Positions 11,380-63,861 of a stretch of 64,000 nt of DNA are shown here, in pieces. Origin of the DNA: Acidobacteriota bacterium (lineage in GTDB: Bacteria > Acidobacteriota > Terriglobia > UBA7540); contig SCRD01000024.1 of the NCBI GenBank assembly GCA_004298155.1, forward strand, positions 248,001 to 312,000, given 5' to 3'. Below the pieces are notes generated by a model, which was given only the letters and a program-made list of their open reading frames with translations, was not told the DNA's origin and did not search any database. A program made the position numbers and the translations under genes. Each line of letters opens with the position of its first letter. Within the stretch, counting starts at the first letter, position 1.

Positions 11380-11414
11380 ATTGTCCTCCTTTCCCCTCGA
11401 AAGAGTGGACCCTG

Positions 11415-11585: not shown

Positions 11586-11599
11586 CCTTGTCCTTCGAA

Positions 11600-12157: not shown

Positions 12158-13062
12158 GGTTTGTCTCTCCTCGATTGGAAGGCTTTCGGATGAAGCTCTT
12201 TCGCAAGCTGCTCCAACGCATCAAAAACAACGGGGCTTGGATGGAAGAGCCGCTCGCTCAGGTAAATCACATGATGATCCCTGAGCGCCTGAAGATGGTC
12301 CCAGCCGGCGTGGGCTTTGAGGTCTTCCTCCGTAATCCCGCCGTGGGCACCTCGGACCAGCAGGATGTAATCCGGTGACAGATGCAGCATCTCCTCCAGG
12401 CTGATTTGCGGCCACCCCTGCTGGATATTCGCGGTAACTGATTGCGCTCCGGCATATGAAATAACATCGGTCACGAACGATTTGCTGCCGGCCGTGATCA
12501 GCGGGTCATACCAGATAACGACGAGAACCTTCGGCCGCGGTAGTCCCTTCACGCGTGCAACCACGGCCGCGCGTTGCGCTTCCAGGTGCTTCACCAACGT
12601 TCGAGCCTGACGGCTTCGGTTGAGCGCATCGCCAACATCCTGGACTGACGCCAGAATCCCCTGCAACCCCTGGGGGTCCACCACAAAAACGGGTATCCCC
12701 ACGTGTTCCAGCTCATCAACAGTCTCTTCCCTGTTGATTTCAGCCATGGCCAGTACCAGGTCCGGATGAAGCGAAACAATTTTCTCTAATGAGGGATCGG
12801 TCAAACCGCCCACGCTCGGTTTCGCCTGCGCCTCCGGCGGGTAATCTGTATAATCCGTTACGCCCACCACAACCTTTCCCAGACCCAGCGCATAAACCGT
12901 TTCGGTGAGACTCGGGGCCAGGCAAACAACACGCTGGGGGTTATCGGGCAGAGTTACGCGCCGGCCCAGTTCGTCCTTCAATCCTCGTGAAGCGAGCACA
13001 GGGGCGCACATCAAGAGAGACCAACCGGCCAGAATCGCTACTCGCTTGAAAAGTCTTCGCAT
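12154..13062 (-). CDS. btuF: Periplasmic cobalamin-binding protein BtuF paralogue
   Basis: A 302-residue substrate-binding protein with a signal peptide (MRRLFKRVAILAGWSLLMCA, residues 1-20, cleavage near 25). Mature-domain motifs are CLAPSLTETVYALGLG, GVTDYTDYPPEA, VGGLTDPSLEKIVSLHPDLVLA and the C-terminal helix. It should bind corrinoids in the periplasm and present them to BtuCD. The frame remains open far upstream, inside cbiA, but the ATG at 13062 overlaps the cbiA stop by one base and starts the leader, so it is the start. It is one of two BtuF-like genes in the cluster; only this one is clearly exported. Confidence 0.9.
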   Translation of the reverse strand: MRRLFKRVAILAGWSLLMCAPVLASRGLKDELGRRVTLPDNPQRVVCLAPSLTETVYALGLGKVVVGVTDYTDYPPEAQAKPSVGGLTDPSLEKIVSLHPDLVLAMAEINREETVDELEHVGIPVFVVDPQGLQGILASVQDVGDALNRSRQARTLVKHLEAQRAAVVARVKGLPRPKVLVVIWYDPLITAGSKSFVTDVISYAGAQSVTANIQQGWPQISLEEMLHLSPDYILLVRGAHGGITEEDLKAHAGWDHLQALRDHHVIYLSERLFHPSPVVFDALEQLAKELHPKAFQSRRDKP

Positions 13063-14459
13063 TAGTCTCCCGCCTTCAAGAGCATCTTCTGCTTTGCGCG
13101 TTGAACATTCTCGACGAAAGTTCCCGCGAGTCCCGGGCTGGAAAGGAAGTGAAGATGAATGTAGCTGGCCAATACATTCTTGACGTGGAAGCCTTCGGCT
13201 TCTTCGCGTCGGCCAAGCGTGTAACGGACCCTGTATGCTTGGTCTATCGGCTCCGGCCCCATAATCGTCGAACAGTGGAAGCTGTGCCCGCGAGCACGAG
13301 TCCCGGCCGTTCCCCAAAGGCAATCCGTCGTCAGGCAAAGCTCTGCATAACCAAAATTCACCAGGCGATCGGTCATCTGTACGCCCAACGGCAGAATGCC
13401 CGCCATGGGAAAAGCTTTGCCGTCGCGAGTCACTATTTGATTGGCCAGGTACATCAGGCCGCCGCACTCGGCGTAGATGGCTCCTCCTTCGTCCGCGAAT
13501 TTCTTCACTGAGGCGATCATTCCTTCATTCGCGCTGAGCTGGCCGGCGTAGAGCTCCGGATATCCACCGCCGAAGTAGAGGGCATCGAGCTTTGCGGGCA
13601 GCCCGGCGTCCTTCATGGGGCTGAATTCCACAATTTCAGCGCCAGCCCCGCGAAGTGCGTCGAGGTTGTCTTCATAGTAGAAGCAAAAGGCTCGATCACG
13701 AGCGACACCGACACGCGCGCGGGAGACTGTCGGTGCTGATTGCCCTTCAGTGGGCGCGGCAACGAAAGACTTGGCAGATTCCAACAGCTTTTCCAGGTCG
13801 ATATTCCCTTCCGCTATTTCGGCGAGCACGCTCAACTTCGAGTCCGGCAACAGGTCTTCGCCTGCGGTAAATAACCCAAGGTATCGTTCCGGGACTTGAA
13901 TCCGCTCATCCCGCGGCATGTAACCCAAGGAAGCAGCGCCGCACGCGCTTTCAACCGCGTCACGGAGCAAGGCATAGTGAGTTGGCCCCGCTACCTTATT
14001 GAAGATCACACCGAGTATTCTCACTTCACGATCAAAAGTCTCAAACCCGTGCACCAGGGGGGCCACGCTTCGCGCAACCTTGGAGGCATCGACTACAAAG
14101 ACGACCGGTAGGCCCAGGAGCTTTGCCATTTCTGCCGTGCTGCCCGTTTCGGATTTTCCGCTTGCGCCGTCGAAGAGCCCCATCACTCCTTCCACGATAC
14201 AAACGTCAGCGCCCGCCGCATTGCGACAGAAGATATCGCGATTTTTGTCGGCTGGGAGCATCCATCCGTCCAGGTTGCGCGATGAGCGCCTGCAGGCGCG
14301 AGTATGGTGTCCCGCATCGATGAAATCCGGCCCGCATTTGAAAGGCTGGACCTGCATTCCCCGTCTCCGGAATGCCGCCATCAGGGCCAGCGTCACGGTG
14401 GTTTTGCCCACTCCGCTAGCCGGACCCGCAACAACAAATCCTTTAATCATTTCAGGCAT
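13062..14459 (-). CDS. cbiA: Cobyrinic acid a,c-diamide synthase
   Basis: CbiA/CobB of about 465 residues amidates the a and c carboxylates of cobyrinic (or hydrogenobyrinic) acid using ATP and glutamine. Seen: the N-terminal P-loop-like GPASGVGKTTVTLALMAAF (about residues 12-30), EGVMGLFDG, and a C-terminal glutaminase domain with the Cys nucleophile in YAECGGLMYL. Two nearby ATGs (14459 and 14450) are plausible, and neither has a strong ribosome binding site; the longer frame to 14504 would run deep into the phosphatase gene. The chosen start overlaps the upstream phosphatase stop by a few bases, fitting coupled translation. Confidence 0.94.
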   Translation of the reverse strand: MPEMIKGFVVAGPASGVGKTTVTLALMAAFRRRGMQVQPFKCGPDFIDAGHHTRACRRSSRNLDGWMLPADKNRDIFCRNAAGADVCIVEGVMGLFDGASGKSETGSTAEMAKLLGLPVVFVVDASKVARSVAPLVHGFETFDREVRILGVIFNKVAGPTHYALLRDAVESACGAASLGYMPRDERIQVPERYLGLFTAGEDLLPDSKLSVLAEIAEGNIDLEKLLESAKSFVAAPTEGQSAPTVSRARVGVARDRAFCFYYEDNLDALRGAGAEIVEFSPMKDAGLPAKLDALYFGGGYPELYAGQLSANEGMIASVKKFADEGGAIYAECGGLMYLANQIVTRDGKAFPMAGILPLGVQMTDRLVNFGYAELCLTTDCLWGTAGTRARGHSFHCSTIMGPEPIDQAYRVRYTLGRREEAEGFHVKNVLASYIHLHFLSSPGLAGTFVENVQRAKQKMLLKAGD

Positions 14460-18720: not shown

Positions 18721-18845
18721 ACGCCAAAAAACCTAGCGTTCTGACGGGAAAGACACTTAGAGCTTCCTGGCTGGAGATGTCAAATAAATTGACTGCCTGC
18801 GAATGCCCATCGACTCTCCCATCGAAGTCGAATCAAGCTGCTGTG
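18721..18845 (-). other. Leader between riboswitch and cobU
   Basis: About 125 bases of minus-strand leader separate the B12 box from the cobU start. This is where an expression platform would lie. I see no textbook terminator (no GC-hairpin plus T run), so regulation could be at translation initiation or by another structure. Confidence 0.35.
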
Positions 18846-18995
18846 AGAGCCTGGTCGGTCTCCTGACTCGCGCATCATCTTCCCGGAACTGCCTTCCCAG
18901 AGTTTCTACTCCAGTGGCTTGCTTCGCTCCGGTTCTCCGCGCTTACAGTGGCGTGGGCCGTGCCGGGTTTACACCGGCTTCCCAAATTAACCAAG
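18846..18995 (-). promoter_or_regulatory. Cobalamin riboswitch upstream of cobU
   Basis: Minus-strand order: GGGAAGCCGGTGTAAACCCGGC, CGCCACTGTAAGCG, AAGCCACTGG, GGGAAGGC and the B12 box GAGTCAGGAGACCGACC. These are the invariant parts of the adenosylcobalamin riboswitch. It governs the cobU-cobC-cobT-cobS-bluB-cobC-cbiA-btuF-cobA unit. It differs in sequence from the btuB riboswitch outside the core, so it is not a fresh duplication. Confidence 0.93.
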
Positions 18996-19239
18996 CGTAT
19001 AGATTTATAGCGCAGTGCAAAGGAGGGAGTCAAGCCAAAGTTTTGCCCACAACAAAACGCACGATGCAGAAGACCGGTTTGAAAGCAGTCCCGACGCAAA
19101 TTCGAAGTTATACCTGGATTACCGATGATGTGTAGTCTTGCAACCTTCGGAGCAGATGGATCGGATAACTCTCTCGGTGTAGATGTGCATCCCCTGACTC
19201 TTCTGAGTTAGCATTCGAGGAAGTCTGTGGTGGCAGTGC

Positions 19240-51213: not shown

Positions 51214-52221
51214 ATTTGGAATAGGGGTATTTACTTCACGCCACCAACCCCAACAGGTTGTGGTTTGATCAAAGTTGCGAACGGAGCCGGGTCTACTTGC
51301 ACCGCCTGTTGAGCCAAACGATAGAACAGCTTTCCCCGGGATGCCGACGTGCGACGGTTAAACCGGAAAGTGAATTCGTCGAGGTAAGCATCCAGTTGAT
51401 CGTGCCCGACCGCACCTTGGTGGGTACCCAGCATCCATCGCTTCAGGAGCGAAACGACCCGATGCACGCGCGGCAACAAATATTCTCCCTCCGCTTGACG
51501 ACGCTGAACCTGTCGGTCGTGGACATAGCTCAACCCCAGGTAGGCAGGCAAGCCATCGGTTCGGACGGTGCTTCCCGGCTGGATGGCCTCAGCGATGAAC
51601 CCGTGCAGGCGGGCGCGAGTCAGATCGGGGATGCGGCGCAGCCGGATGTGGCCAAGGCCTTTCCCATCCTCCTGAGCGGCCACGAGGATCAGGGCTTTAG
51701 CTTCCGCTCCTCGTCCAATAACGCCGGGTTCCTCACCGCCCCAGTACGTTTCGTCGACTTCAACCACACCCCTCAGCCGGTCGCGGCTTGGCCGGACCAT
51801 GGCTCGACGCAACTTGTGCAAGATCGCCCAAGCGGTTTTGTAGCTGCCCAGACCCAGCGCACGCTGCAATCCCAAGGCGCTGATGCCGTTCTTCTGGTTG
51901 GTGATGTACCACATGGCTCGAAACCAAGTCCCCAGCGGGAGGTGGCTGTCCTGAAAGATGGTGCCGGCCGTGACCGATACTTCATACCGGCAATGCCCGC
52001 ACCGCCAGCGACTCCGCCGAACCTGCCAAGCCTCTCGTCCTTGGCACCGAGGACATCTCCAACCGTTAGGCCAGCGCAGCCTCGCAAGGTATTCAGCGCA
52101 GGCCTGTTCATCGTGAAAGCGTCGTTCCAATTCCATCAAGGTTCGTGGATAATCCCCGACCATGCCCTTGAACACTACAGGTTGTGGTCGGTGGCGTCAA
52201 GTAAATACCCCTAATTTGGAA
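51214..52221 (-). mobile_element. IS1595-family insertion sequence with 8-bp target duplication
   Basis: The element spans 51222-52213 with terminal inverted repeats starting TAGGGGTATTTACTT at both ends. It is bounded by a perfect 8-bp direct repeat ATTTGGAA at 51214-51221 and 52214-52221, the target-site duplication length known for IS1595 elements. It carries one intact transposase. Exact ends and duplication indicate a fairly recent insertion between the membrane-protein gene and the DUF3179 gene. Confidence 0.93.
51231..52175 (-). CDS. IS1595-family transposase
   Basis: A 314-residue transposase of the ISXO2/IS1595 type. The N-terminal zinc ribbon is CPRCQGREAWQVRRSRWRCGHC (spanning about residues 41-62). 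The following helix segment has WFRAMWYITNQKNGISALGLQRALGLGSYKTAW, and the catalytic core begins with GVVEVDETYWGG. Later acidic and Asn/His residues would complete the DDE/N/H site, with RFNRRTS near the C-terminus. It occupies nearly the whole element. Confidence 0.92.
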   Translation of the reverse strand: MFKGMVGDYPRTLMELERRFHDEQACAEYLARLRWPNGWRCPRCQGREAWQVRRSRWRCGHCRYEVSVTAGTIFQDSHLPLGTWFRAMWYITNQKNGISALGLQRALGLGSYKTAWAILHKLRRAMVRPSRDRLRGVVEVDETYWGGEEPGVIGRGAEAKALILVAAQEDGKGLGHIRLRRIPDLTRARLHGFIAEAIQPGSTVRTDGLPAYLGLSYVHDRQVQRRQAEGEYLLPRVHRVVSLLKRWMLGTHQGAVGHDQLDAYLDEFTFRFNRRTSASRGKLFYRLAQQAVQVDPAPFATLIKPQPVGVGGVK

Positions 52222-52327
52222 TCATCGCCGGGCTAGTGAAGGCAGGCACGGATGCTCCCCAAACTCAGGTTTTCAGCAAACTCTTGGTGGCGGCAGACCA
52301 GTTCGCATGCAACGCCAGGAAGGATAC

Positions 52328-53311
52328 ATGTCAGAGAAAAGGAAGTATTGGGCGTTTCAACTTGCCGTCCTCATTTTGTTGACCCTGACCGCCGCCATCG
52401 GTTCGGGTCAGCAAGTTCGCGTCGAGCGGAAACCTAAATTCATAAAGAACGGTCAAAAGACTCTTCCGTTCGAGGTGACACGCCACATCGTTCCGTTACG
52501 TCAAATCGAGGGTGGAGGCCCTCCGCGTGACGGTATTCCTGCATTGATTGATCCTGAGTATATTCCTGCGGAGGAGGCTGGGCGCCTTCTCGAACCCTCT
52601 GACCGCGTGCTTGGGGTCCTCTTTAATGGGGAGGCGAGAGCATATCCAATTCGCATCTTGAATTGGCACGAGCTTGTCAACGATACCGTGGGAGGAAGAC
52701 CTATTCTGGTCAGTTGGTGCCCGCTCTGTGGTTCGGGCGTAGTTTACGACCCGATGATCGGCGGCCGGCGGCATATTTTCGGAGTGTCAGGGCTGCTTTA
52801 CAAGCGCAACCTCTTGTTCTTCGACAGACAGACAGGAAGCCTTTGGTCGCAACTGCTGTCGGAGGCGGTGACAGGACCGATGGCAGGAACCAAGCTTCAC
52901 GCCCTGCCTGCTGAAGACACAACGTGGAAAAATTGGGAGAGCCCGCATCCGGACACACTGGTCCTCTCCTTCGCCACAGGTTACCAGCGGGATTATCGCG
53001 CTGATCCCTATGCCGCTATGCCACTTGCCCGAGACCCGGCGTTATTCGTAGCGGCTGAGGGAGAGGCGGAAATCTTCCCGTTCTCGCAGCTGCATAAAGC
53101 CCAGACTCCGGTAACCGAGCAACTCGCGGGTCAACGTTTTATCATCCGTTTTGAACCCCATTCGAAGACAGCGCGGGTTGAATCTGAATCGCCCGGTCGA
53201 ATAACTTGGTTTGTGGGATTCAAAGAGGATCTCCGGCACTTTTTCCCAAAGGCGCAGGTCTATCACTTCCGCAAATCAAAGAGACGATCTAATGAAAGCA
53301 ATGGCATATAG
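52328..53311 (+). CDS. DUF3179-domain secreted protein
   Basis: A 327-residue DUF3179 protein with an N-terminal signal peptide/anchor (YWAFQLAVLILLTLTAAIGS). The conserved motifs are DRVLGVLFNGEARAYPIRIL, NWHELVNDTVGGRPILVSWCPLCG and SGLLYKRNLLFFDRQTGSLWSQ. The SWCPLCG motif holds two cysteines four residues... that is, in a CxxC pattern, hinting at metal or redox function, which is not established for the family. The ATG at 52328 has AGGAAGG ahead, so the ATG at 52307 is rejected. Confidence 0.88.
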   Translation: MSEKRKYWAFQLAVLILLTLTAAIGSGQQVRVERKPKFIKNGQKTLPFEVTRHIVPLRQIEGGGPPRDGIPALIDPEYIPAEEAGRLLEPSDRVLGVLFNGEARAYPIRILNWHELVNDTVGGRPILVSWCPLCGSGVVYDPMIGGRRHIFGVSGLLYKRNLLFFDRQTGSLWSQLLSEAVTGPMAGTKLHALPAEDTTWKNWESPHPDTLVLSFATGYQRDYRADPYAAMPLARDPALFVAAEGEAEIFPFSQLHKAQTPVTEQLAGQRFIIRFEPHSKTARVESESPGRITWFVGFKEDLRHFFPKAQVYHFRKSKRRSNESNGI

Positions 53312-53361
53312 ATATTTGACGGACTCCGTATTGCCAGTCAAAGATTTTAGGGGGTGAATAA

Positions 53362-54717
53362 ATGGCGAAGACATACGACTTGGTCGTGATCGGAACGGGT
53401 TCGGCGGGTTCGACGGTAGCATCGGCCTGCCGTCACGAAGGCTGGAAGGTGGCAATTATTGATTCGCGGCCCTTCGGAGGGACCTGCGCCCTGCGTGGTT
53501 GCGATCCGAAGAAAGTGTTGGTCGGTGCGGCCGAAGCCATCGACTGGGTGCAGCGGATGAACGGAAGCAGAATAATCGCTGGAAATGCACGCATCGACTG
53601 GCCGGAACTGATCCGCTTCAAGCGCACCTTCACGGAGCCGGTACCCAAAGCGCGCGAAGAAGGCTTTGCCAAGTCGGGGATCGCCACCTTCCACGGAAGA
53701 GCGCATTTCGTGGAACCGGGGACGATCCAGGTCGGCGGCGAAATGCTCGCAGCAAAGCACATCGTGATTGCAACCGGAGCGCGGCCTGCCAAGCTGAACA
53801 TTGAGGGTGATGAGCACTTGATCACGAGCGACGAATTTCTGGAACTTGAAGCTCTGCCGCAGCGCATCGTCTTTGTCGGTGGCGGCTACATCTCCTTCGA
53901 GTTTGCCCACGTGGCAGCACGCGCAGGATCGCAGGTCACAATCCTGCATCGTGGCCCGCACGGACTGGAACGCTTTGATGCGGACCTGGTGGACCGGCTT
54001 GTGAAGTGGTCTCGGCAGGTCGGGATCGATATCCAGTTGGAGACGTCGGTGAAGAGCATCGAGAAGAAGCCTTCCAGTCTGATTGTGAAGACATCACGTC
54101 ATGGCGAAGAAAAGGAATATCCAACAGATTTGGTTGTGCATGGCGCGGGCCGTGTGCCCGAGATTGACGGTCTGGATCTTGTCCGAGGAGGAGTAGAACA
54201 CGACCGACATGGAGTGAAAGTGAACGAGTACCTGCAGAGCACATCGAATCCAGCGGTTTACGCCGCGGGCGATTGTGCTGCAAGTGAAAACGCGCCGCTG
54301 ACTCCCGTCGCGGGGTATGAGGGCCGGGTCGTTGCTTCCAACCTGCTGCACGGAAATCATCAGAAAGCGGATTATGGAAGCGTTCCAAGCGTCGCCTTCA
54401 CTATTCCCCCACTGGCAGCGGTAGGCCTCGACGAGCGAACGGCCCGCAATCACGGTCTGCGTTTTCGTGCGGGAGCGGGCGACATGTCAAGCTGGTACTC
54501 GTCGCGCCGAACCGGAGAAACCTGTGCCGCCTATAAAATCCTGGTGGAGGAAGGAACTGAACGTATTCTCGGCGCACATCTCCTCGGGTCTCACGCTGAG
54601 GAACACATCAATCTTTTCGCGCTGGCAATCCGCAAGGGGATACAGGCCTCGGACTTAAAGGAAACGATCTACTCCTATCCGACGCATACTTCGAACACTC
54701 AATATCTGATTCCCTGA
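53362..54717 (+). CDS. FAD-dependent pyridine nucleotide-disulfide oxidoreductase
   Basis: A 451-residue member of the glutathione/mercuric reductase group. Seen: FAD-binding VVIGTGSAGSTVASACRHEG at the N-terminus, a redox-active disulfide in GTCALRGCDPKK (C-x4-C at about residues 42-47), the NAD(P)-binding IVFVGGGYISFEFAHVAARAG, and the second FAD contact VYAAGDCAASE. The C-terminal tail ends SYPTHTSNTQYLIP, which keeps a His but lacks the usual HxHPTxSE pattern of lipoamide or mercuric reductases. Substrate unknown. It lies upstream of a selenoprotein-rich region and could supply reducing power to it, but that is only inference. Confidence 0.9.
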   Translation: MAKTYDLVVIGTGSAGSTVASACRHEGWKVAIIDSRPFGGTCALRGCDPKKVLVGAAEAIDWVQRMNGSRIIAGNARIDWPELIRFKRTFTEPVPKAREEGFAKSGIATFHGRAHFVEPGTIQVGGEMLAAKHIVIATGARPAKLNIEGDEHLITSDEFLELEALPQRIVFVGGGYISFEFAHVAARAGSQVTILHRGPHGLERFDADLVDRLVKWSRQVGIDIQLETSVKSIEKKPSSLIVKTSRHGEEKEYPTDLVVHGAGRVPEIDGLDLVRGGVEHDRHGVKVNEYLQSTSNPAVYAAGDCAASENAPLTPVAGYEGRVVASNLLHGNHQKADYGSVPSVAFTIPPLAAVGLDERTARNHGLRFRAGAGDMSSWYSSRRTGETCAAYKILVEEGTERILGAHLLGSHAEEHINLFALAIRKGIQASDLKETIYSYPTHTSNTQYLIP

Positions 54718-54954
54718 GTGCTGCGGTAGAGACGAAAGACACATCTTGAATCTCGGTCGAACGATCGCAAGAACTGTTGTGACCCAAGGAGACCAGCAAG
54801 GCTGGCATCGCCTTAGGAGGTCTGCCGTTCTTGAAGGGGATGATTATCCCGCCGGTGTCTCTGACCAGTGCGTCGTTGCGCCCACGCAGGGTTCTCGCTC
54901 GGCGGGAGGCCGTCGCGCCATGCCTGCGAGGCTGCAAACCTGGAAGGTAAAAAT

Positions 54955-55422
54955 ATGCAACTTCTGGAAATAGCCCCCTTGATAACGGCAGTGGCTCTTG
55001 TCATCAGTGCCATCTTTGTTGCCGTCCAATTGCGGAACGCGCGTCGCGACCGCTTTGTGGCGGTCACCAACGAATTGTTCGACATCTGGCAGAGACCTGA
55101 TTTCATGGCAGCACAACTGTGGTTGATTCACGATGTGACTGAAGATTCCTGGGAGGAATTCCTGAACCGGCACGGGAAGGAAGGCGAGACCGCATTTCTG
55201 CGCGTGACGGGTTTCTACAATCGAGTGGGTGCGCTGGTCACTCTCGGTATTGTGGACGAGCGAACAATCCTGAGAACCATTGGCTCCACGGCTTACGCCG
55301 TTTGGGCCAAAACAAAGCCGCTTATTGAAGGAGCACGGGCAGAGAATCTGGCGCTGCTTCGAGAATTTGAGTTGTTGGTACCCATTTGCGAGTCTTTCCT
55401 GAAAGGACGAAGCGGCGGCTAG
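54955..55422 (+). CDS. Single-pass membrane hypothetical protein (DUF4760-like)
   Basis: A 155-residue protein with an N-terminal membrane helix (IAPLITAVALVISAIFVAVQL) followed by a cytosolic helical domain (FVAVTNELFDIWQRPDFM, NRVGALVTLGIVDERTILR). Such small one-pass proteins are common and mostly uncharacterised. The start ATG at 54955 has GGAAGG ahead; the longer frame from 54868 has no signal. It lies 45 bases ahead of the NADHX epimerase gene. Confidence 0.6.
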   Translation: MQLLEIAPLITAVALVISAIFVAVQLRNARRDRFVAVTNELFDIWQRPDFMAAQLWLIHDVTEDSWEEFLNRHGKEGETAFLRVTGFYNRVGALVTLGIVDERTILRTIGSTAYAVWAKTKPLIEGARAENLALLREFELLVPICESFLKGRSGG

Positions 55423-55466
55423 GTTGGCAGCCTCCCATCGGGCCGCTGGGGGAAGTCGAAACAAGC

Positions 55467-56234
55467 ATGCCAAACGACCAGTTCAATTTTCGGTTCTTTA
55501 CAGCGACAGGCAAGCAAGTTCCAGCCGTAACGGCGGACGAAATGCGTGAGGTGGACCGCATCGCAACGGAAGAGACTGGCCCCAATCTCTACCAGATGAT
55601 GGAAAATGCCGGGAGGAATCTGGCGCTCCTGGTGATCGAACTTCTTGGAGAAAACTGGCAAAAGGCCAGGATCGTCGTGCTGGCAGGGAGCGGTGGCAAT
55701 GGAGGCGGCGGCATTTGTGCGGCGCGGCACCTTGCCAATCGCAACGTTGATGTTCGGCTGTGTCTCGCCCAACCCGAGCGCCTGGGCGAAGTTTCCGGAT
55801 GGCAACGGAAGATCTTCCAATCTACACGCGGGCAGGAAATTGACAGGAGTCGGCTTCCTGAAGAACGGCCGAATCTTGTCCTGGATGCCCTGATCGGATA
55901 CGGCTTGAAATCGGCTCCTGATGCGGGTATGGCACAGCTTATCCGCTGGGCGAACTCATCCCTGAGCCAGGTTCTTGCGCTTGACGTACCTTCCGGCTTG
56001 AACGCCACAACTGGCGAAACTTCAGGGACATGGACATGCATCGAGCCGAAATGGACCATGACCCTGGCGCTGCCTAAGACAGGACTTCTTCCAGAAAGGG
56101 CAGGAGAACTTTACCTCGCCGATATTGGCATTCCAGCGGGAACGTACCGGCGTCTGAACCTCAAATACGAAAGCCCTTTCGAATCTCGTGTCTGGGTCCG
56201 GCTCCATTGCCGAAAAGTTCTGGGGTTGACCTGA
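55467..56234 (+). CDS. nnrE: NAD(P)H-hydrate epimerase (YjeF N-terminal domain)
   Basis: A 255-residue protein with only the YjeF_N domain: the opening VPAVTADEMREVDRIATEETG, the substrate loop VLAGSGGNGGGGICAARHLANR, the DALIGYGL motif and LALDVPSGLNATTG. It interconverts the R and S forms of damaged NAD(P)H hydrate. The ADP-dependent dehydratase domain often fused to it is absent here and would have to be elsewhere. The ATG at 55467 follows GGGGGAAG; the frame is open to 55386 but the extra part overlaps the gene before. Confidence 0.88.
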   Translation: MPNDQFNFRFFTATGKQVPAVTADEMREVDRIATEETGPNLYQMMENAGRNLALLVIELLGENWQKARIVVLAGSGGNGGGGICAARHLANRNVDVRLCLAQPERLGEVSGWQRKIFQSTRGQEIDRSRLPEERPNLVLDALIGYGLKSAPDAGMAQLIRWANSSLSQVLALDVPSGLNATTGETSGTWTCIEPKWTMTLALPKTGLLPERAGELYLADIGIPAGTYRRLNLKYESPFESRVWVRLHCRKVLGLT

Positions 56235-56369
56235 GTCTGGTAATTCGTGTCGACCCAGAAGTCTCCAAGGCTGCAAATCGCCGCACATGGCGAGCACCTC
56301 ATGAAGACCTGCGGTCCTCGCGGCGATGAATTCATTGGGGAAGGAAGTCGACTATCTGTCGTAGACATT

Positions 56370-57113
56370 ATGGCCAAGCTATCCGATCTAAAACTGAAGT
56401 ATCGAATCTTCATGAAGACCTACCGGTATCGCCAGTTTGACTGGCGCCCTGGCGCGGTACTGCAGAAGCCGCTTTCTCAATCGCGAATTGCTGTGGTGAC
56501 CAGCGCGGCCTTCTTCCGCCCCGATCAACTGCCATTCGATCCGTCAATTCGCGGCGGCGATTATTCATTTCGGGAGATGCCGGTCGAAGTCGATTTGGTC
56601 ACACTGCGGATCGGTCACAAAAGCGACGCATTTGATCACTCCGGAATTGAGAGCGATAAGAATCTGGCGCTGCCACTGGATCGTTTGCGAGAATTGGAGG
56701 CTGAGGCGCGCATCGGGGACGTGGCGCCGCGTCACTACAGTGTGATGGGCTCGATCTCCGCTCCGGCGCGCTTGGTCACTATTACTGCACCGGAGATCGC
56801 GCGCAGGTTGTCGGAAGACGAAACGGACGGAGTCTTGCTGACTCCGGTTTGACCTCTTTGCCACCAGTCTGTAGGACTGGTCCAAAGCGTGATCGAGAAG
56901 TCAGGCATACCAACCGTTTCGATCAGCTTGCTGCGCGAGGTAACGGAGCGGGTCCGGCCGCCTCGCGCACTCGTCGTCGATCGTCCGCTGGGATATCCGC
57001 TCGGAGCGCCGCACGACATTGACTTACAGAAGCGCATCGTGATGGCGGCTCTCGAACTTCTCGCGCACCCCGTCCAGGAGCCGCTTCTTGTGGATTTCAC
57101 AGAGAGAGCATGA
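56370..57113 (+). CDS. GrdB-like selenoprotein 1 (in-frame UGA as Sec161)
   Basis: A 247-residue protein of the selenoprotein B family of glycine/sarcosine/betaine/proline reductases, short version. The first part ends in ETDGVLLTPV, then TGA at 56850-56852, then PLCHQSVGLVQSVIEKSGIPT. Family members read VUPLCHQS here, so the TGA is Sec161 and continuation to 57113 is expected. Directly after it is a hairpin: CTTTG pairs with CAAAG and ACCAGTC with GACTGGT (56856-56887), fitting a bacterial SECIS. The start at 56370 gives the family MAKLSDL opening, though the ribosome binding site (AAGGAAG at about 56341) is distant. The complete enzyme complex is not encoded nearby, so the true reaction is unknown; a thiol- or selenium-based reductase is likely. 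Confidence 0.88.
56856..56887 (+). promoter_or_regulatory. SECIS-like hairpin of GrdB-like gene 1
   Basis: Begins three bases after the TGA. Stem ACCAGTC/GACTGGT with loop TGTAG, extended by CTTTG/CAAAG after a short internal loop. Position and a small G-containing apical loop suit recognition by SelB. Confidence 0.75.
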
Positions 57114-57164
57114 GCCGCCTCGACCGTTCTTCTAATGACACCGGCAACAAGAAGTCAGGTGGCT

Positions 57165-57476
57165 CTATATCTTTACTTCGCTAATCTGCACTGTGGGCTG
57201 AGTGTTTGTGTAGTTTGGGACATCATTCAGAATGGTCTGGGCATGTGGTCCGAAGGAGGACTGAAAGGCTTCCATCGACTCGAACAAAAGATGGCCCACG
57301 GCAACATACGGCGCAGGCGCCCCAGGCGTTGCGCCTGCCAAACCCTGCTCGACAGCAACACCCTTGAGCGCCGTTCCCAGCTTCTGCCGAACCATCGGTA
57401 TATGTTTGTCCAAATAGTACGCCATGGAAAATGTGCTGCCTTCGCCGTTCGGATACATGACGCTGACTTTAATCAT
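57165..57476 (-). CDS. EthD-family protein
   Basis: A 103-residue dimeric alpha/beta-barrel protein. The opening IKVSVMYPNGEGSTFSMAYYLDKHIPMV and the later AVGHLLFESMEAFQSSFGPHAQTILNDVPNYTN are typical of EthD-like stress or degradation proteins; the reaction is unknown for most. The ATG at 57476 has AGGAGG ahead. It is the last minus-strand gene of the selenoprotein group. Confidence 0.85.
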   Translation of the reverse strand: MIKVSVMYPNGEGSTFSMAYYLDKHIPMVRQKLGTALKGVAVEQGLAGATPGAPAPYVAVGHLLFESMEAFQSSFGPHAQTILNDVPNYTNTQPTVQISEVKI

Positions 57477-57779
57477 CCTCAACTCCTCCTGACTTATTTC
57501 GAATCCCCTTCCTGGTGAACAGGGGACCGCATGCATGGCGTTGGTTCCAGCCTCTTTCGCTGCTGCCTGAAGCTCTTTGGCATAGGCCGGCGCCTCCTGC
57601 GCTTGCGGCTTTTGAGGCCCGGTGAGACTTTCCCCGTCGTCTGGCGCGCGCGGAACTTATCGCCTGCTATCGTTGCCCAATGATGCCAGGTTTGTTCATC
57701 GTCGCCCACATTCCCTGTGTTTTGATGAGCGCCCTCGGCTGCTCCTTAATCTCTGTTAGGCGAGCAGACACGCGCGGCG
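57477..57779 (-). other. Open but disrupted stretch ahead of the EthD gene
   Basis: The minus strand reads as protein-like sequence without a start codon, ending QEAPAYAKELQAAAKEAG close to the EthD gene. A phase change at a CGCGCGCG run near 57648 separates it from a GDDEQTWHHWATIAGDKFR segment upstream. It may be a small broken gene; I cannot name it. Confidence 0.3.
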
Positions 57780-58568
57780 TCAATGAGCCTTTTTTTGCAA
57801 CTGCAGCTCTCGAAGATTGTCGTACGTCCATTTGTATGGAAGGTCCGCGATTGTGCCCGGCGTCCTCATCCTCTCGACCGCCTCCAAACAGTCAATCAGA
57901 ATCTGCCGCTGCAAGCCTTTCTCCCCGATATTGCCAAAAGTAAACCCGAAAGGATGCCCCAGGAAAAGAGCGCGTGAGGGCTTCACTTGCTCCGTGATCT
58001 CCTTCACCAGCGTCAGGGACATTGTCGCCAAGCCCGCCTCGTCAAAAATCCTCTGAAGCAGCCCCACGGACTGCTGGCACACCGGTCAGGCAGGCGCGAG
58101 CAGGACGAGGTCCACCCGATCCGTCTTGAGCTTCTCCGCAACCTCGGGACCAGTCTCCTTTATAAGCGGCTCGGCAATCGGGATGTAACCCATAAAGGAA
58201 AAGTGGCGATGATTCAACGGGCCGATCACTCCTTCAGTTTCTAGCTCCCGCAAGCGCTCGAGCGGGAAAACGCAATTGATGTCCTGGCTGACTCTGCGCG
58301 TGTTATAGCCGACGTGTGATAATCGCAGATCCTCAAAACTCACGTCATTCGGAATCTCGCGGTAAGAGGCATCGCCGGTTTTGCTGCGAATATCAAACGC
58401 AGGATCACTCGCCCGATGGACCCCCGCCGTTGTGACCAGCGCCACACGGCATTCCTCGACCGGCTTGGTCAGCGGATTGATGCGCGAAGGGGTTTCGCAG
58501 ACAACCCATTCGAAATCGGGAAGGATCCGTTTGCGGATGTACTCCCGTTCAACTGCGGCAAAGTTCAT
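57780..58568 (-). CDS. GrdB-like selenoprotein 2 (in-frame UGA as Sec161)
   Basis: A 262-residue paralogue of the plus-strand GrdB-like protein. The upstream part ends TDRVDLVLLAPA, then TGA at 58086-58088 (minus), then PVCQQSVGLLQRIFDEAG. The UxxC placement is the same as in copy 1 and again is residue 161. A hairpin AGCAGTCC/GGGCTGCT with loop GTG lies 10 bases after the TGA (58057-58075). Both ATG 58568 and GTG 58577 could start the gene. Sequences of the two copies differ strongly outside the core, so they are old paralogues rather than a fresh copy. It lies next to the AhpD-like gene. The substrate is not known. Confidence 0.88.
58057..58075 (-). promoter_or_regulatory. SECIS-like hairpin of GrdB-like gene 2
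   Basis: Eight-base-pair stem AGCAGTCC/GGGCTGCT with one G-T pair and a GTG loop, 10 bases after the Sec TGA. Confidence 0.65.
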
Positions 58569-58655
58569 CGATGTCACTCTTTTTCATCCGTGGTTTGGCT
58601 TGGCGCCGTCGGGGGCCATTCCCCGAGTTTGACGCTCCCTAATCTGCCGTGAAGC

Positions 58656-59045
58656 CTAAACCCCGATATCGGGCTCGACCATCAAGCCGTCCAGAAACTT
58701 GTTCAAATTGTTGAACAGACCGACGACACCCATGAACTCAACCAAGCCCTTCTCGCTTAGGCCCAGGCCCTTGAGAGCTGCGGTATGGGCGTGAATGCAA
58801 TAATGACAGTTGTTCGTGGCCGAAACCGCAAGCGCCACCAGTTGTTTCTCACGCGGCGTCAACTCCCCAGGACCCATCACCGTTTTGAATTGGTTCCAGG
58901 TCGCTGTTAGAAGCTCCGGATAGTTAGCCATCGCCCGGAAAAGATTGGGGACGGCTGGAATTCCCATTGTCTTCTTGATGTCTTCGTATACATGTTTCAC
59001 ATTCTCTGTAGTCTCGTCTTCAATGACCATTTTCACCTTCGCCAT
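58656..59045 (-). CDS. AhpD-like carboxymuconolactone decarboxylase-family protein
   Basis: A 129-residue AhpD-fold protein with the redox CxxC in NNCHYCIHAHTAALKG (Cys-His-Tyr-Cys) and the nearby LTPREKQLVALAVSATN block. Such proteins act as thiol peroxidase partners or alkylhydroperoxidases. This one uses Cys in both positions, unlike its neighbours that use Sec. The ATG at 59045 has a strong GGAGGG site; the longer frame to 59081 does not. It probably works with the peroxiredoxins encoded upstream. Confidence 0.88.
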   Translation of the reverse strand: MAKVKMVIEDETTENVKHVYEDIKKTMGIPAVPNLFRAMANYPELLTATWNQFKTVMGPGELTPREKQLVALAVSATNNCHYCIHAHTAALKGLGLSEKGLVEFMGVVGLFNNLNKFLDGLMVEPDIGV

Positions 59046-59307
59046 GGTTTCCCTCCGGTTTGCTTCGATTTTCGCGTGCACGGTCTATGTGATGCAACAC
59101 CATCCCAATAAGATTCGGCGGCAAGGATTACATCTTGAAAGCGCAGCCCGGACATCATCGAACCGATACGACCGGAATTTGTCCCGCTCTTGTGGTGTTC
59201 GCCCGACCCGACGCACGTCCCCAGGTATTGCAATAGGAGGAGTGGTTTTGTCCCCTTGCACAAAACATATGATTATGGGAACGGTTCATGCTCGACCGCC
59301 GATCATT

Positions 59308-60756
59308 TTATTTCAGTTCATGCGGCGCGATGGCGATCGGCACATCCTGCCGCCGGTACATGCAAACGCCGTTCACGTCCTCGCACACGTAGTAGAGGGC
59401 GTAGGCGGAAAGAGTGACGGGCCGGGCGCTCCTTTGCTCGGGACCCCGCACTTCGAACTCCACCTCGCGGGGTTCTTTGCTGACCGCCTCGGGAGGGTTA
59501 GGAACACTCACAAGGCGCTGGCTGACCTTCCAGCCAGCGGGCGGGTTGACCCAAAAGACAAGGTTCCCGGCTTCGTTGTTCCAGTGAGCCTTCTTCGCCG
59601 GATTCGGCCGGAACATCACATGCACACGGTCGGTGACATCTTCGGCCCGGGTATCCGGCACGACCGCAGTTTCAACTTGGACGAACTGCCCATCGTCGCG
59701 CAGGATTCGTCCTCGCGGGTCCGGCTCCTTCACGCTCTTTGCGGCGGCCGCAAAAGTCTTTTCGGGATGAGCGATTTCGGCGCCTGCGGGCTCGACCGAG
59801 AGCGGCGCCGGAGTCTCGCCACGTGCAGCGATTTCCTTGCGCGCCGTCTCCACCCAATCGTAAAACGGATAAGGCTTGTCAAGCCGCGGGCCGTATTGCT
59901 GGATGCGCCGCCGCCAGATGTACTGGTTAGGATCGATCTCCAGGGCCGCGCTCCATTGCTCGACCGCCTTCTGGAAATCTTCCGGCTGGCGGAACTCGGA
60001 ATCGTACCGCTTGCGGTACGCAACGCCGAGGCGGAAGTGCAGTGGACCTGCGTCGGGCTCCAGGCGCAGGGCGTGCTCGTACGCCCCGATAGCCCCGTTG
60101 ATCTGCCCGGGACCTCCCCATTCCACCAGAGCATTTGCATAACCTTCCCAGGCCCTCGCTGTGCCTTGGCGAGTGGCTTGCTTCAGAGAAGTCAGGTCCG
60201 GCGCGACGTCCCGGACGGGTGGCAGGTTTGCCGGCTTCTCGAATGTTCGGCTGAGAAACTTCCCGATGTCTTCATGCCTGGGGTTGACTTTACGGATTAC
60301 GCCATACTCGTCAATGAACAGCGTGATGGGGACGGCGGAATTTCCAAGCAGGTTGAGCGAATCCACCAGGATCGGCCATCGCATCTGTTTCCATTGCATG
60401 AAGAGCCGGGCGCGGTCTGGATGCTGCTCTTCAATAATTCCGGCCATTTGGACTTTGCCCTGTTCCTGCAATTTTTTCGTTGCTTCGTGCCACCCGGGCA
60501 CATGCACGCGGCAGCCCGCTCACCAGGAAGCGAAAATGTGGAGGATCAATTTCTTGCCCCGAAAGTCCGCCACAGAGCCGGGCCGGCCGTCGCGCAGCCG
60601 GGGCAAAATTAACGTGGGAAACATTTGGCCTTCATGAAACTCGACCGCGTCAGTCTTCGGGGGAGCTGCTTGTTCCGTGTTGCGGGTTAGCATGATCCCT
60701 GTCGGTCCTCCTGCCGCAAGTCCAATCGCAACGATGCCCATAATCCATTTCTTCAT
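59308..60756 (-). CDS. TlpA-like thioredoxin/TPR selenoprotein (in-frame UGA as Sec79)
   Basis: A 482-residue exported protein read through TGA at 60520-60522. N-terminal signal/anchor KKWIMGIVAIGLAAGGPTG; a thioredoxin-like domain with LILHIFASW-U-AGCRVHVPGWHEA, where the Sec takes the first Cys of the WCxxC motif; a TPR region (ALVEWGGPGQINGAIGAYEHALRLEPD); and a C-terminal domain resembling DsbD N-terminal-like folds, ending YYVCEDVNGVCMYRRQD. It should reduce or isomerise disulfides, or act as a peroxide reductase, on the periplasmic side. The second ATG (60756) has AGGAGGT seven bases ahead. A conventional caller would report only the downstream frame from 60507. Confidence 0.87.
60487..60501 (-). 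promoter_or_regulatory. SECIS-like hairpin of the TlpA-like gene
   Basis: Minus strand GTGCC-CGGGT-GGCAC, five-base-pair stem and five-base loop, 18 bases after the Sec TGA. Confidence 0.6.
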
Positions 60757-60867
60757 CTCCATACCTCCTGCCCGGTCTGCTTGCTGGAAACCGACCGGAC
60801 TCTGCCGGGCAGGACTTTACTTTCGGAGTCTTCCCTTGCTCCCCTGAGTAAAGTCCTCAATCAGAGC

Positions 60868-61458
60868 CTACTTCAGCTTTCGTGCCTGAGCCAGATCCTC
60901 CTCAACCGCTTCGCGAACATGGTAATCTTCGGCCTGATGAATCCAGCGGACCGTGCCGGTCCCGTCAATCAGGACGAGCGTCGGCGTATTGACGCTTAGC
61001 CCCTCGCGGTTGCGGTATTCCGGCGAACGAGTGCCGTAGAGTTCCATGGCCACGTGTTTTGAATCCGAAAGGATAGGAAACGGAGCCCTCAGTTTTTCCT
61101 CGACCCACTTCCCTCTGCTCGGAGGGTCCACGCTGACGGCCAGGATCTGAACGTCCAGCTTTTTGAAATCCGCATTGTGCTTGACGAGCTCACCGAGTTC
61201 GCCCATGCAGTGAGGTCACCAATACCCTCGGTAAAATTCAATGAGGACGTTGTGACCAGCGTAGTCCGAAAGCCTGACCGTCTTGCCATCCGCCGAAGGC
61301 AGCGCGAAATCCGGGGCCTTGTCTCCCACCTTAATCTTGAGTGGCAGAATTTGATCCTGGGCTGCCATGGATGGCGGGTTGGGAAACCCCAGCGCCCCCG
61401 CCAGGATAACCGCGAACAGGATACTCAATGAAAGATACAGGCCTCGTTCCTTTACCAT
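60868..61458 (-). CDS. Peroxiredoxin-like selenoprotein 1 (in-frame UGA as Sec81)
   Basis: A 196-residue AhpC/TSA-type protein with an N-terminal membrane/signal segment ([19 protein letters not shown]). The redoxin domain starts [22 protein letters not shown], followed by [13 protein letters not shown] at 61216-61218, and [14 protein letters not shown], giving the peroxiredoxin-like UxxC. The later part ([44 protein letters not shown]) is typical for the fold. The ATG at 61458 follows AGGAGG by eight bases. Product likely reduces peroxides or disulfides in the periplasm. Without Sec insertion it would be a useless 80-residue piece. Confidence 0.87.
61184..61202 (-). promoter_or_regulatory. 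SECIS-like hairpin of peroxiredoxin-like gene 1
   Basis: Minus strand GCGAACTC-GGT-GAGCTCGT, seven of eight positions pair (one G-T), beginning 13 bases after the Sec TGA. The weakest of the six hairpins. Confidence 0.45.
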
Positions 61459-61506
61459 TGCGCCAACCTCCTCTATTCGAGCATCTGCCAAGCTTCACGG
61501 AACCCC

Positions 61507-61989
61507 CTATGAGGGCGGCTCAAGTTCATAGGAAGTTCGAATCTCGATAGCCGCTCGGATGGAGCGCGCCACGGGGCAGTGATCGGCGTGAAGGGCATGA
61601 ACCCGCTCGATGGTCTCGCGCATTTCCTCAGGAGCGCGAAGCTTGTAGTGAACAGCGATCCGGCGGATGACGAGAACGCTTCCGTCCAGCTCAATTTCTC
61701 CCACTGTTTCCGAGGCCAGCTTGCCATCCGAGGCGTCAATCTGGCGCGCTTCCAGCGCGCCCCCGAAGGTTCCGGTAAGTCAGCCCGCCGCTGCCGCGAC
61801 GACGTAATCGAGCGTCGTTGCGCGCGGTGGATAGGCGTCCGGCGGGACCTTGTAGTGCTCCGCTACTTCAGAATGCACGCCAAAAATAACCGGCGCCGCC
61901 TCAGCGGGCAAATATGCCAGCCGCATCGGACCACGCTGCCTCTCGATACGAACTCGCGAAGTATAAACAACTTTGCCTGAAGAAGACAT
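61507..61989 (-). CDS. OsmC-like selenoprotein (in-frame UGA as Sec70)
   Basis: A 160-residue OsmC/Ohr-fold protein. The first frame ends PRATTLDYVVAAAAG, then TGA at 61780-61782, then LTGTFGGALEARQID. In OsmC proteins the catalytic Cys sits exactly here (GCLTGT), so Sec70 replaces it. The C-terminal part has EEMRETIERVHALHADHCPVARSIRAAI with the second conserved Cys. It should reduce organic hydroperoxides. A perfect seven-base-pair hairpin GGCGCGC/GCGCGCC follows 18 bases after the TGA. The ATG at 61989 has GGAGGT 10 bases ahead. It lies between two Sec peroxiredoxin-like genes. Confidence 0.88.
61743..61761 (-). promoter_or_regulatory. SECIS-like hairpin of the OsmC-like gene
   Basis: Perfect seven-base-pair stem GGCGCGC/GCGCGCC with loop TGGAA, 18 bases after the Sec TGA. 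Confidence 0.7.
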
Positions 61990-62045
61990 AATGACTCAAC
62001 CTCCGTTGTTCTTGAAGATTCGTCCCGGCAGGATGTCCTGAATCA

Positions 62046-62621
62046 CTACTTTCGGACGGTTCCTGCGACAGCAAGCAGCATCTCCGGCCGGATTCGCACG
62101 GTGTAATCGGGATTGGCATAGGTAAATTGAATCACACCGTCCGTTCCCGCTATGAAGACCGCAGGCACCGGAAGCTGGTGGTGATTCTCCCCCGAGGCTT
62201 CTTCCAGGTCGATCCCATACACTTCCAACTGCTTCAGGGTGTTCGCATCCACCTGATACGCCACTCGAAACGCCTGCGCGGCCGCCATCCGGCTGTCGGA
62301 GAGGAAAATGCCTTGAATCCCATATTTCTCCTTTGTCTCACGGAGTTTGGCGGGCCGGTCAGGGGCAATGGCAATAAGCTGGAAGCCCATTTCGTTGAGC
62401 TGTGTTTCGATGCTTCGCAGTTCGCCGAACTGCTTGTTGCAGTGCGGTCACCACCCTCCGCGATAAAAGACCAGAATGGCCGGCTTTTCCTGAACCGCCT
62501 CGACCAGGTTCACTTCGCTCCCGTCTATCGAATGGATGGTGACGGAAGGGACGGAAGTTCCCGGCATCAAAGGGCAAACATCTTTGGGTGAAGCTGGCAT
62601 CTGGCGAGATTCTTGAACCAT
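62046..62621 (-). CDS. Peroxiredoxin-like selenoprotein 2 (in-frame UGA as Sec58)
   Basis: A 191-residue redoxin. The first part contains VPSVTIHSIDGSEVNLVEA and PAILVFYRGGW, then TGA at 62448-62450, then PHCNKQFGELRSIETQLNEM: the pattern FYRGGW-U-PHC of AhpC/TSA-like proteins with a Sec. The rest (FQLIAIAPDRPAKLRETKEK, VPAVFIAGTDGVIQF) is standard. No signal peptide, so probably cytoplasmic, in contrast to the other peroxiredoxin-like protein. The ATG at 62621 has GGGGG nine bases ahead. It heads the minus-strand selenoprotein group. Confidence 0.87.
62417..62433 (-). promoter_or_regulatory. SECIS-like hairpin of peroxiredoxin-like gene 2
   Basis: Perfect seven-base-pair stem GCAGTTC/GAACTGC with a GGC loop, 14 bases after the Sec TGA. 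Confidence 0.7.
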
Positions 62622-62956
62622 TTTATGACCCCCTTATAACTTCCTAACTTTGACAAAAACCATTTGCGTCGGCTGACTTGTAGAAAAAACTTGAGAGATT
62701 GGATGCCACCAGAGTATTTAAGGTTCAGATGGTGCACCCTTGTGACGATGGCGCTCCCCTCCGCATAGGAGCTAATACAACCGCACGCGATCAAGTTACC
62801 CCGAGTTGTAGAGCCGGTGTCCTCACCGGCGAAATCGGCGGCGATGGGAACACCACCACTCCAGCCAGTGTCATTGACTTCGTGCGCTTGCATTTACATG
62901 CGCCCGTTCGCATCGAGATTGCGGAGCCCCGCTCGGGAGCTCTTAGCCGGGTCCGC
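62622..62956. other. Intergenic region upstream of the selenoprotein group
   Basis: About 335 bases with no credible gene; the promoter of the minus-strand selenoprotein genes should be here. No recognised regulator site. Confidence 0.35.
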
Positions 62957-63861
62957 TTAGGCGGCAGAGCGCCCATCCCCGCCCAGTTGCTCGCCAAGGC
63001 TCCTTGAAAATGAATAGATGCTGGAGACAGGGATCAACCCTGCCACCTTGTGCCTTCCGATAGCTAAAAGACCGGCGGAAGCCATACAGCCGCACTCCGT
63101 GCAGACGGGATTGCCGCCGAACTGGCATGGTGTGATTCGCGTGGCCAGATCGGCCGAAACACACAGCGTCGTCTGCGCGAAGATACACTCCTCAGGGGAT
63201 GCCGGCGGGCGCAGGTAACTCTCAAGCGCGTTTTGCGGGAGATCAATTTTCTCGAAGCGGGCGCGCAACTGGGAGAGTTCTTCAACTGCTTTCACTCGGT
63301 CCTGGAGAGTCAGCCTTTCTTCGCTTCGCTCGCCCTCCTGCGGAGTGTAAAGACTGAACCAGATTTTCCGAATCTCCTCACGCTCCGACCAAAAGGCGGC
63401 GAAGTCCCCCAGATAGCCCGGTGGTTTCAAAAGCTGCCTGGTAATCGTACAGTGCACATTGAGCCGGTGCCCGGCAATATGTTTCAGGATTCGTTCATAG
63501 GTGGCGGGCGCACGGCGCTCGTGACGAGTTGCACCCCCACGCCCAAGCCGGATAATTGGGGAAGCAAAACGTCCAGTTCGCGGTAGCGAACCAGGGGTTC
63601 TCCTCCGACGATCGAAACAAACACCGGGCGGAAATGGCTGACCAGCTCCAACACTCCTGAGATCAGTGCTTGGCCCTGAAGGTCGCCCAGTTGGCGCAAG
63701 GGCCCCGCCATGCCCAAATGCCCCGGCTCGTATGCATAGCAGCCGGGGCACCGAAGAGGGCACTCTCGAGTGATTTCAACCGACAGCACCGGCCGACGAC
63801 CTTGCAGAATTGCGCCCCCAGCACGCATCAAGACTGAAAGATCCGAACTCTTTCCTTTCAT
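62957..63861 (-). pseudogene. Radical SAM protein gene with internal deletion and frame change
   Basis: The first frame (63484-63861) has the radical SAM cluster motif ECPLRCPGCYAYEP (CxxxCxxC) and the VFVSIVGGEPLVRYRELD segment. The second frame, used from about 63530 down to 62957, continues with APATYERILKHIAGHRLNVHCTITRQ and ends with a Cys-rich segment CQFGGNPVCTECGCMASAG, a likely second iron-sulfur site. The two parts belong to one protein of about 335 residues, but some 30 residues and the phase are missing where they meet (after VQLVTSAVRP). It may be a real pseudogene or an assembly error. Family role unknown; it lies next to the selenoprotein genes. Confidence 0.7.

Follow-up and report, generated by a model that had tools for sequence, protein, structure and literature searches.

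The DNA analyzed here (the window; 64,000 nucleotides of contig SCRD01000024.1 from an Acidobacteriota bacterium, assembly GCA_004298155.1) carries a gene in which a selenocysteine (Sec) TGA lies in a TlpA/ResA-type thioredoxin domain that is followed by a TPR region and a C-terminal Ig-like domain. A single in-frame TGA (60522-60520) splits one frame, leaving 80 codons before it and 403 after it, and the standard-code reading shows the gene as two ORFs. An earlier reading of the letters alone (the sequence-only reading) had placed the gene at 59308 to 60756; these coordinates hold, and the strand, absent from that reading, is minus. The first candidate ATG is at 60762, while that at 60756 is better spaced from AGGAGG and fits the residue number (79) given for Sec by the sequence-only reading. 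Residues are numbered here from the ATG at 60762, making Sec residue 81 (79 from the ATG at 60756), and reading TGA as Sec yields a 484-residue protein from this start. The features of the gene are as follows.

59308 to 60756, minus strand: whole gene, with an apparent signal/anchor segment, a TlpA-like Sec thioredoxin domain, a TPR region, and a DsbD_N-like domain
60238 to 60630, minus strand: TlpA/ResA/CcmG-type thioredoxin domain, residues 45 to 175 (Pfam and structure)
60520 to 60522, minus strand: TGA, selenocysteine codon, motif ASWUAGCR (frame and relatives)
60487 to 60501, minus strand: probable SECIS hairpin, GUGCC-CGGGU-GGCAC (codon constraint, covariation, and fold)
59893 to 60195, minus strand: TPR region, residues 190 to 290 (Pfam and structure)
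59851 to 59931, minus strand: PNQYIWRRRIQQYGPRLDKPYPFYDWV, a strongly conserved stretch at the end of the TPR, residues 278 to 304 (alignment)
59329 to 59700, minus strand: C-terminal Ig-like, DsbD_N-like domain, residues 355 to 478 (model pLDDT, 92.4; hhalign)
59383 to 59385, minus strand: Cys460, first Cys of the C-terminal pair, CEDVNGVC (alignment)
59362 to 59364, minus strand: Cys467, second Cys of the C-terminal pair (alignment)

The N-terminus of the protein is hydrophobic. When 72 members of the family were examined with the best candidate start taken for each, 65 of the 70 with a usable start had an N-terminal 15-residue stretch with a mean hydropathy of at least 1.6. Export, as the sequence-only reading proposed, is therefore apparent from hydropathy, an assignment that is supported but not proven.

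The sequence-only reading had also placed Sec (WUAGC) in the attacking position of a TlpA-like thioredoxin. This assignment is strongly supported because the TGA is conserved, the SECIS hairpin covaries, the genome has the full Sec machinery, and sister proteins also contain TGA. Scanning genome_contigs for peptide patterns that leave out the Sec motif yielded 30 relatives. All 27 that cover the site have TGA there, which excludes chance, and 375 to 426 more codons separate the TGA from the next stop. The motif of the relatives is ASWU-x-GCR, with S79, W80, G83, C84, and R85 invariant in a 28-row alignment. Between two paralogs of the window genome, the differences 3' of the TGA (68, 50, and 155 at codon positions 1, 2, and 3) show a pattern that fits coding sequence.

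A protein search of 396 Acidobacteriota genomes returned 21 rows at E values of ≤1e-60 from 20 genomes; the site is covered by 19 of these rows, with a single TGA in every one. Another 18, weaker rows (E values of 1e-18 to 1e-10) fall outside the family. They include a UGC-type protein (G188) and a frame-broken UAGC fragment (G008). Among the remaining 16, the 5 that were read are all Cys TlpA-like proteins; outside this reading fall 11 rows, one with an internal TGA and another (G352) with a TAG. For the other three phyla, profile searches were performed at E values of ≤1e-20, and the center genome of each search, which holds the gene, was counted in. Matches were obtained in 36 of 343 genomes for Planctomycetota (40 rows, of which 37 reach the site and 36 have TGA), in 6 of 346 for Gemmatimonadota (TGA in 6/6), and in 2 of 387 for Verrucomicrobiota (TGA in 2/2). 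One of the 36 planctomycete rows with TGA holds two TGAs, one (L146) belongs to the UGC type, and in five (G548, G538, G492, G659, and G736) the TGA was assigned by stop count with the motif unread. At E values of ≤1e-20, a single row, L144 (G477:C197), covers the site and has no TGA there. It was considered as a Cys form but set aside as a distant relative, because its FASWDNSR contains no Sec or Cys and the C-terminal domain is missing. Its ASWDNSR-containing reading (L144:2432-3700, minus strand) is a thioredoxin domain without either redox residue.

The comparison of Sec with Cys at residue 79 among homologs, which the sequence-only reading had suggested as a check, thus gave TGA in all family members that reach the site, and no cysteine form was found among 1,472 sampled genomes of the four phyla (at most four first-look candidates scored per genome). 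Real stops or different frames on the two sides of the codon, named in the same reading as grounds for refutation, were not found among the relatives that reach the site; the exceptions are fragments that are apparently frame-broken (L061 and G008 in L147).

Regarding the decoding machinery, tRNA-Sec was detected in the window genome at 68.4 bits (cutoff, 47), in agreement with ARAGORN, and SelA, SelB, and SelD (the last with one TGA) all scored over the cutoff. Of 14 control genomes, 5, 2, 2, and 2 were over the cutoff for the tRNA-Sec, SelA, SelB, and SelD models, respectively. Among eight genomes of relatives, tRNA-Sec exceeded the cutoff in six and not in two. The gene therefore combines the hallmarks of a bacterial selenoprotein, namely, an in-frame UGA flanked on either side by conserved coding sequence and Sec machinery in the genome. 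We conclude from this sequence evidence that the TGA is predicted, on firm grounds, to be decoded as Sec.

A hairpin is located 19 to 33 nt after the UGA, with a 5-bp stem, a 5-nt loop (CGGGU), and a folding energy of -7.6 kcal/mol. The UGA-to-loop spacing is 23 nt, and the hairpin satisfies the bacterial SECIS constraints given in the available text of PMC13188914. Its folding energy was unremarkable (z scores of 0.12 for 47 nt and -0.98 for 21 nt), and 32 of 200 shuffles folded as well. We assessed codon constraint in 42 distinct genes, taking the codon usage of each gene as the expectation. Codons within the stem deviated from this expectation: GTG at U+7 in 42/42 (15.2 expected), CCC at U+8 in 38/42 (15.1), GGG at U+9 in 35/37 (7.4), and CAC at U+11 in 36/38 (23.7). 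Flanking codons deviated as well (TCC at U-2, 25/42 against 11.0 expected; GGC at U+2, 33/42 against 19.4; GAA at U+12, 18/23 against 7.5; GCG at U+13, 22/29 against 8.9), so the constraint extends beyond the stem.

In 71 distinct sequences, the stem was paired in 354 of 355 cells (99.7%), and sliding the partner strand by one to three columns left 21 to 69% paired. Three of the stem pairs were invariant, and the other two were altered on both sides in nine cells. In a shuffle control inflated by the kinship of the sequences, none of 500 shuffles reached nine double-changed cells (mean, 0.6) or the seven further pair types observed (mean, 2.6), while the bare count of two double-changing pairs was equaled by 39 of 500. 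In four rows, VPxWH is replaced by LPxWQ with a CUGCC/GGCAG stem; other variants are IPVWY (AUACC/GGUAU), VPVWD (GUCCC/GGGAC), and VPVWN (GUUCC/GGAAC). Some members have GGUCU in the loop, as does Escherichia coli fdhF; the window hairpin may not suit E. coli SelB. Amino acid pairs exchanged together by such double changes are difficult to account for without the stem. Because the codons are constrained and compensatory substitutions carry over into the protein (V/H to L/Q), we consider the hairpin to be very probably the SECIS element.

When the complete read-through protein was searched against Pfam, the thioredoxin and TPR regions scored above the cutoffs and the C-terminus scored below. 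AhpC-TSA reached 36.6 bits (cutoff, 26), with AhpC-TSA and Redoxin covering residues 44 to 160 and Thioredoxin matching more weakly. The TPR repeats that the sequence-only reading saw behind the thioredoxin domain were recovered as TPR_11 (35.2 bits; cutoff, 26.8), with the TPR matches falling in residues 203 to 279. In the AF2 model of the whole protein (mean pLDDT, 85.6; pTM, 0.82), a helix (residues 82 to 100) follows the motif, as in thioredoxin folds, with Sec replacing the first Cys of the CxxC-type site. Foldseek matched the domain to ResA, CcmG, and TlpA (E values down to 1.4e-8). The best VIA-align rows had Z scores of 13 to 14.5 and rmsd values of 1.9 to 4.7 over 126 to 140 residues, including CcmG 3kh9 (Z, 13.9; rmsd, 4.2; 139 residues) and ResA 2f9s (Z, 13.2; rmsd, 2.2; 127 residues), and peroxiredoxin-like chains were lower (Z, 12 to 13). 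The domain shares with ResA both the fold (TM-score by target, up to 0.78) and the position of the redox motif. Unlike TlpA, ResA, and CcmG (DsbE), the window protein has Sec for the attacking Cys and adds the TPR and C-terminal domains. The peroxiredoxin motif PxxxTxxC(U), given as PxxxTxxU in PMC13188914, is absent from the window protein, whose site reads ASWUAGCR.

The nearest cataloged family is NCBIfam NF041054 (WAxxUGC_long; ResA-like WAxxUGC motif-containing protein), in which TPR likewise follows a Sec-bearing thioredoxin domain of the TlpA/ResA type. Its alignment with the window protein spans residues 47 to 287, and all 28 members of set A1 match it (best E value, 2.8e-28), but the scores of the window protein (65.6 bits), L031 (62.1), and L036 (61.5) are below its cutoff of 300 bits, and the motif is UAGC in the window protein and UGC in the NF041054 type. 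Two UGC-type proteins (WASWUGCR), L145 and L146, share with the window protein the Sec, the thioredoxin domain, the TPR, and a related DKFY..YDW segment after the TPR; they differ in ending before any C-terminal Cys-pair domain and in having an extra N-terminal stretch. These two proteins (L145:2163-3335 and L146:1407-2591, both on the minus strand) score 172 and 166 on NF041054 and, because both scores are below 300, may constitute a further uncataloged subgroup. We infer that NF041054 corresponds to the "UGC-containing TlpA disulfide reductase family" listed in Table 1 of PMC13188914. In a tree of 33 thioredoxin domains, the UxxC family (24 rows) formed one side of a branch (96/97) and adjoined the UGC-type proteins, apart from six Cys TlpA-like proteins; the deep order of this tree is unsure because several end branches are long.

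The sequence-only reading had suggested an undescribed type of selenoprotein. This holds for the fusion and not for the Sec-containing TlpA/Prx-like proteins as such, since these, including the UGC type, are already known. A 2026 catalog of 119 families and subfamilies includes, in its available text, TlpA-like Sec entries whose motifs are UxxC and UGC (PMC13188914). Its cd02966 UxxC and PF08534 UxxC entries may include members of the present family, as may "Prx-like 3" in what is accessible of PMC2398784. A description of the fusion of a Sec thioredoxin domain, TPR, and this C-terminal domain was not found in the open literature. NF041054 covers the Sec-thioredoxin-TPR core, so NCBIfam already records that much; what is new is the C-terminal domain, together with a UxxC motif in such a context.

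For this C-terminal domain, no Pfam model scored above its cutoff. DsbD_N (PF11412) reached 12.0 bits (cutoff, 25; E value, 0.21) and matched 3 of 30 members (best E value, 0.075), and an unrelated model, NPCBM_assoc, matched 9 of 30 (best E value, 0.0028). A PDB sequence search with the domain gave no match, and its profile gave chance matches only. Given that the fold search with the whole model probed well only the thioredoxin and TPR regions, the domain was folded alone. It was predicted as a beta sandwich (pLDDT, 92.4) in which Cys460 would end one long strand and Cys467 would start the next. In Foldseek, other Ig-like folds ranked ahead of the N-terminal domain of Neisseria meningitidis DsbD (ranks 25 to 45; E values, 5e-3 to 1.2e-2; identity, 16 to 18%; poor rmsd, 9 to 12). 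VIA-align gave generic Ig-like matches (Z scores of ≤9.3), with DsbD_N not among the best 50 rows listed. By contrast, hhalign against a DsbD_N profile built from 19 sequences of related genomes aligned 109 columns (probability, 55%; score, 31.6) with both Cys pairs in register; its controls, consisting of column-shuffled and reversed profiles alone, scored at best 17.4 in 40 shuffles and 13.6 when reversed.

The presence of Cys in this domain, pointed out by the sequence-only reading, was borne out in 68 of 72 distinct members (C-x6-C in 64; C-x5-C in 4). Of the four members without the pair, L061 is frame-broken before it, and L134, L136, and L137, all from the planctomycete search, keep UxGC. 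The genome_contigs members were partly selected for the first Cys because the scan pattern YYVCEDVN contains it; members from the other searches were not selected for the C-terminal Cys. On this sequence evidence, we assign the thioredoxin and TPR domains and the conservation of both putative redox centers firmly. The likeness of the C-terminus to DsbD_N, also proposed by the sequence-only reading, is moderately supported: the domain is a probable remote homolog, likely but not proven, because hhalign favors the relationship and the Pfam and Foldseek matches are weak. Both the domain and PF11412 are Ig-like with a Y-x-x-C ... C hairpin; they differ in Cys spacing, which is C-x6-C or C-x5-C here and mostly C-x4-C in the DsbD_N sequences read. 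Unlike DsbD, the window protein has no membrane domain.

The gene is part of a cluster (window positions 52307 to 63861) that holds five further selenoprotein genes.

60868 to 61491, minus strand: Prx-like selenoprotein, WUPHC, with a hydrophobic N-terminus
61507 to 61989, minus strand: OsmC-like selenoprotein (AAGULTGTF)
62046 to 62621, minus strand: Prx-like selenoprotein, WUPHC
57780 to 58577, minus strand: PrdB/GrdB-like selenoprotein, UPVC
56382 to 57113, plus strand: PrdB/GrdB-like selenoprotein, UPLC

The cluster also contains an EthD-like gene, an AhpD-like gene with CxxC, a glutathione reductase (GR)-like flavoprotein gene, DUF3179, and a radical SAM gene. Most of it is duplicated in the same genome (L073; G000:C8:96000-111000) at 59 to 85% identity; the L073 copy, on a different contig, has no counterpart of the AhpD-like gene or of the PrdB-like gene at 57780-58577. 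TGA is kept in both cluster copies of Prx1, OsmC, Prx2, PrdB2, and the Sec thioredoxin fusion gene. DUF3179 has Cys (SWCPLCGSG) at 52307-53311 (plus strand) of the window and Sec (SWUPLCGSG) in its paralog at 12932-13876 (minus strand) of L073, which is a Sec/Cys exchange between paralogs of one genome. The TGA that ends the GR-like gene (53362-54729) was considered as a Sec codon and rejected as an ordinary stop because the paralog stops at the same place. The radical SAM gene (62957-63861, minus strand) is read across two different frames and is therefore frameshifted or split. An IS1595-type transposase gene (51231-52175, minus strand) adjoins the cluster, and two cobalamin riboswitches (100 and 98.4 bits) are located elsewhere in the window (11412-11605 and 18836-19010, minus strand).

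With few exceptions, the neighborhood differs in other genomes. A Prx-like gene lies beside the fusion gene also in L035 (whose sequence is that of L060) and in L058, and L009 has a weaker Prx-like neighbor as well as a PrdB-like one. Regarding conserved partners, no Pfam family occurred in more than 2 of the 76 neighboring ORFs scanned out of 89 (DUF3179 in 2), a scan that may miss small partners because gene calling cuts Sec genes. One locus of the window genome encodes a CcdA-type DsbD_TM protein together with a Cys TlpA-like protein and a stand-alone DsbD_N protein; a periplasmic electron supply therefore probably exists in this organism.

With a confidence slightly above even, we favor the view that the protein is an exported Sec reductase in which the nDsbD-like domain most likely feeds electrons to the Sec thioredoxin domain. 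The UGA would be decoded via the bacterial SelB/SECIS route, and Sec81 and Cys84 would form the UxxC center of the TlpA-type domain, with Sec81 attacking oxidized substrates and Cys84 resolving. The C-terminal Cys460-x6-Cys467 would most likely reduce the thioredoxin domain's selenenylsulfide. The TPR region would link the two domains and may bind a partner, electrons would arrive from a CcdA-type membrane reductase, and the substrate is perhaps the neighboring Prx-like selenoprotein with the hydrophobic N-terminus. The direction of electron flow, the intramolecular transfer, and the substrate are the inferred parts of this scheme. In Neisseria, nDsbD reduces the TlpA-fold N-terminal domain of PilB (k2, 6x10^5 per M per s; PMC6210582), and because free nDsbD reduces such a partner, electron delivery within or between chains is suggested. 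The likeness to that system, as described in the available text, consists in a TlpA-fold domain served by an nDsbD domain; there, nDsbD is on a separate protein, and the Cys enzyme is joined to MSRA/MSRB domains.

The most serious alternative, which we consider unlikely, is that the C-terminal domain plays just a structural part, as an Ig-like fold that contains a structural disulfide and docks the substrate, and that a separate protein, such as a stand-alone DsbD_N protein, reduces the Sec thioredoxin. The generic Ig-like matches in Foldseek and VIA-align, the DsbD_N score below the cutoff with NPCBM_assoc matching more members, the three planctomycete members that lack the Cys pair, and the separate DsbD_N gene all fit this alternative; the presence of the pair in 68 of 72 distinct members and its alignment with the pair of DsbD_N argue against it.

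That the protein is instead a Sec-dependent peroxidase or detoxification enzyme acting on small molecules (peroxides, metals, or metalloids) as part of the Prx/OsmC/PrdB cluster is improbable. The largely duplicated cluster with two Prx-like selenoproteins and one OsmC-like selenoprotein, the best Pfam domain (AhpC-TSA), and the Prx-like neighbors in L035, L058, and, more weakly, L009 are consistent with such a role. However, the active site is a UxxC reductase motif and not PxxxTxxU, thiol-disulfide reductases lead the structural matches, ahead of peroxiredoxin-like chains, and the clustering is not general among relatives. Finally, a genuine stop, a sequencing error, a pseudogene, or another residue through a code change, for which the raw stop codon alone speaks, has a negligible likelihood given the conservation, across four phyla, of both the TGA and the coding sequence before and after it, the SECIS covariation, the Sec machinery, and the ending of PrdB2 in TGA in both cluster copies.

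Returning to the exported Sec reductase, we tentatively extend this reading, at somewhat less than an even chance, to a Sec-only family in Acidobacteriota, Planctomycetota, Gemmatimonadota, and Verrucomicrobiota that joins a thioredoxin domain to its own fused nDsbD-type reductant and in which an mRNA hairpin steers the protein sequence. If true, this would be a self-contained selenium relay, with V-P-x-W-H swapped for L-P-x-W-Q and other combinations in step with the stem. The SECIS hairpin provides a clear case of an RNA structure constraining a protein through paired amino acid changes. Most selenoproteins have homologs with Cys in place of Sec (PMC1088965, in its accessible part), and the Sec-only pattern in the four sampled phyla raises the question of why selenium is irreplaceable here. 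With the fusion, the electron route can be tested inside a single polypeptide.
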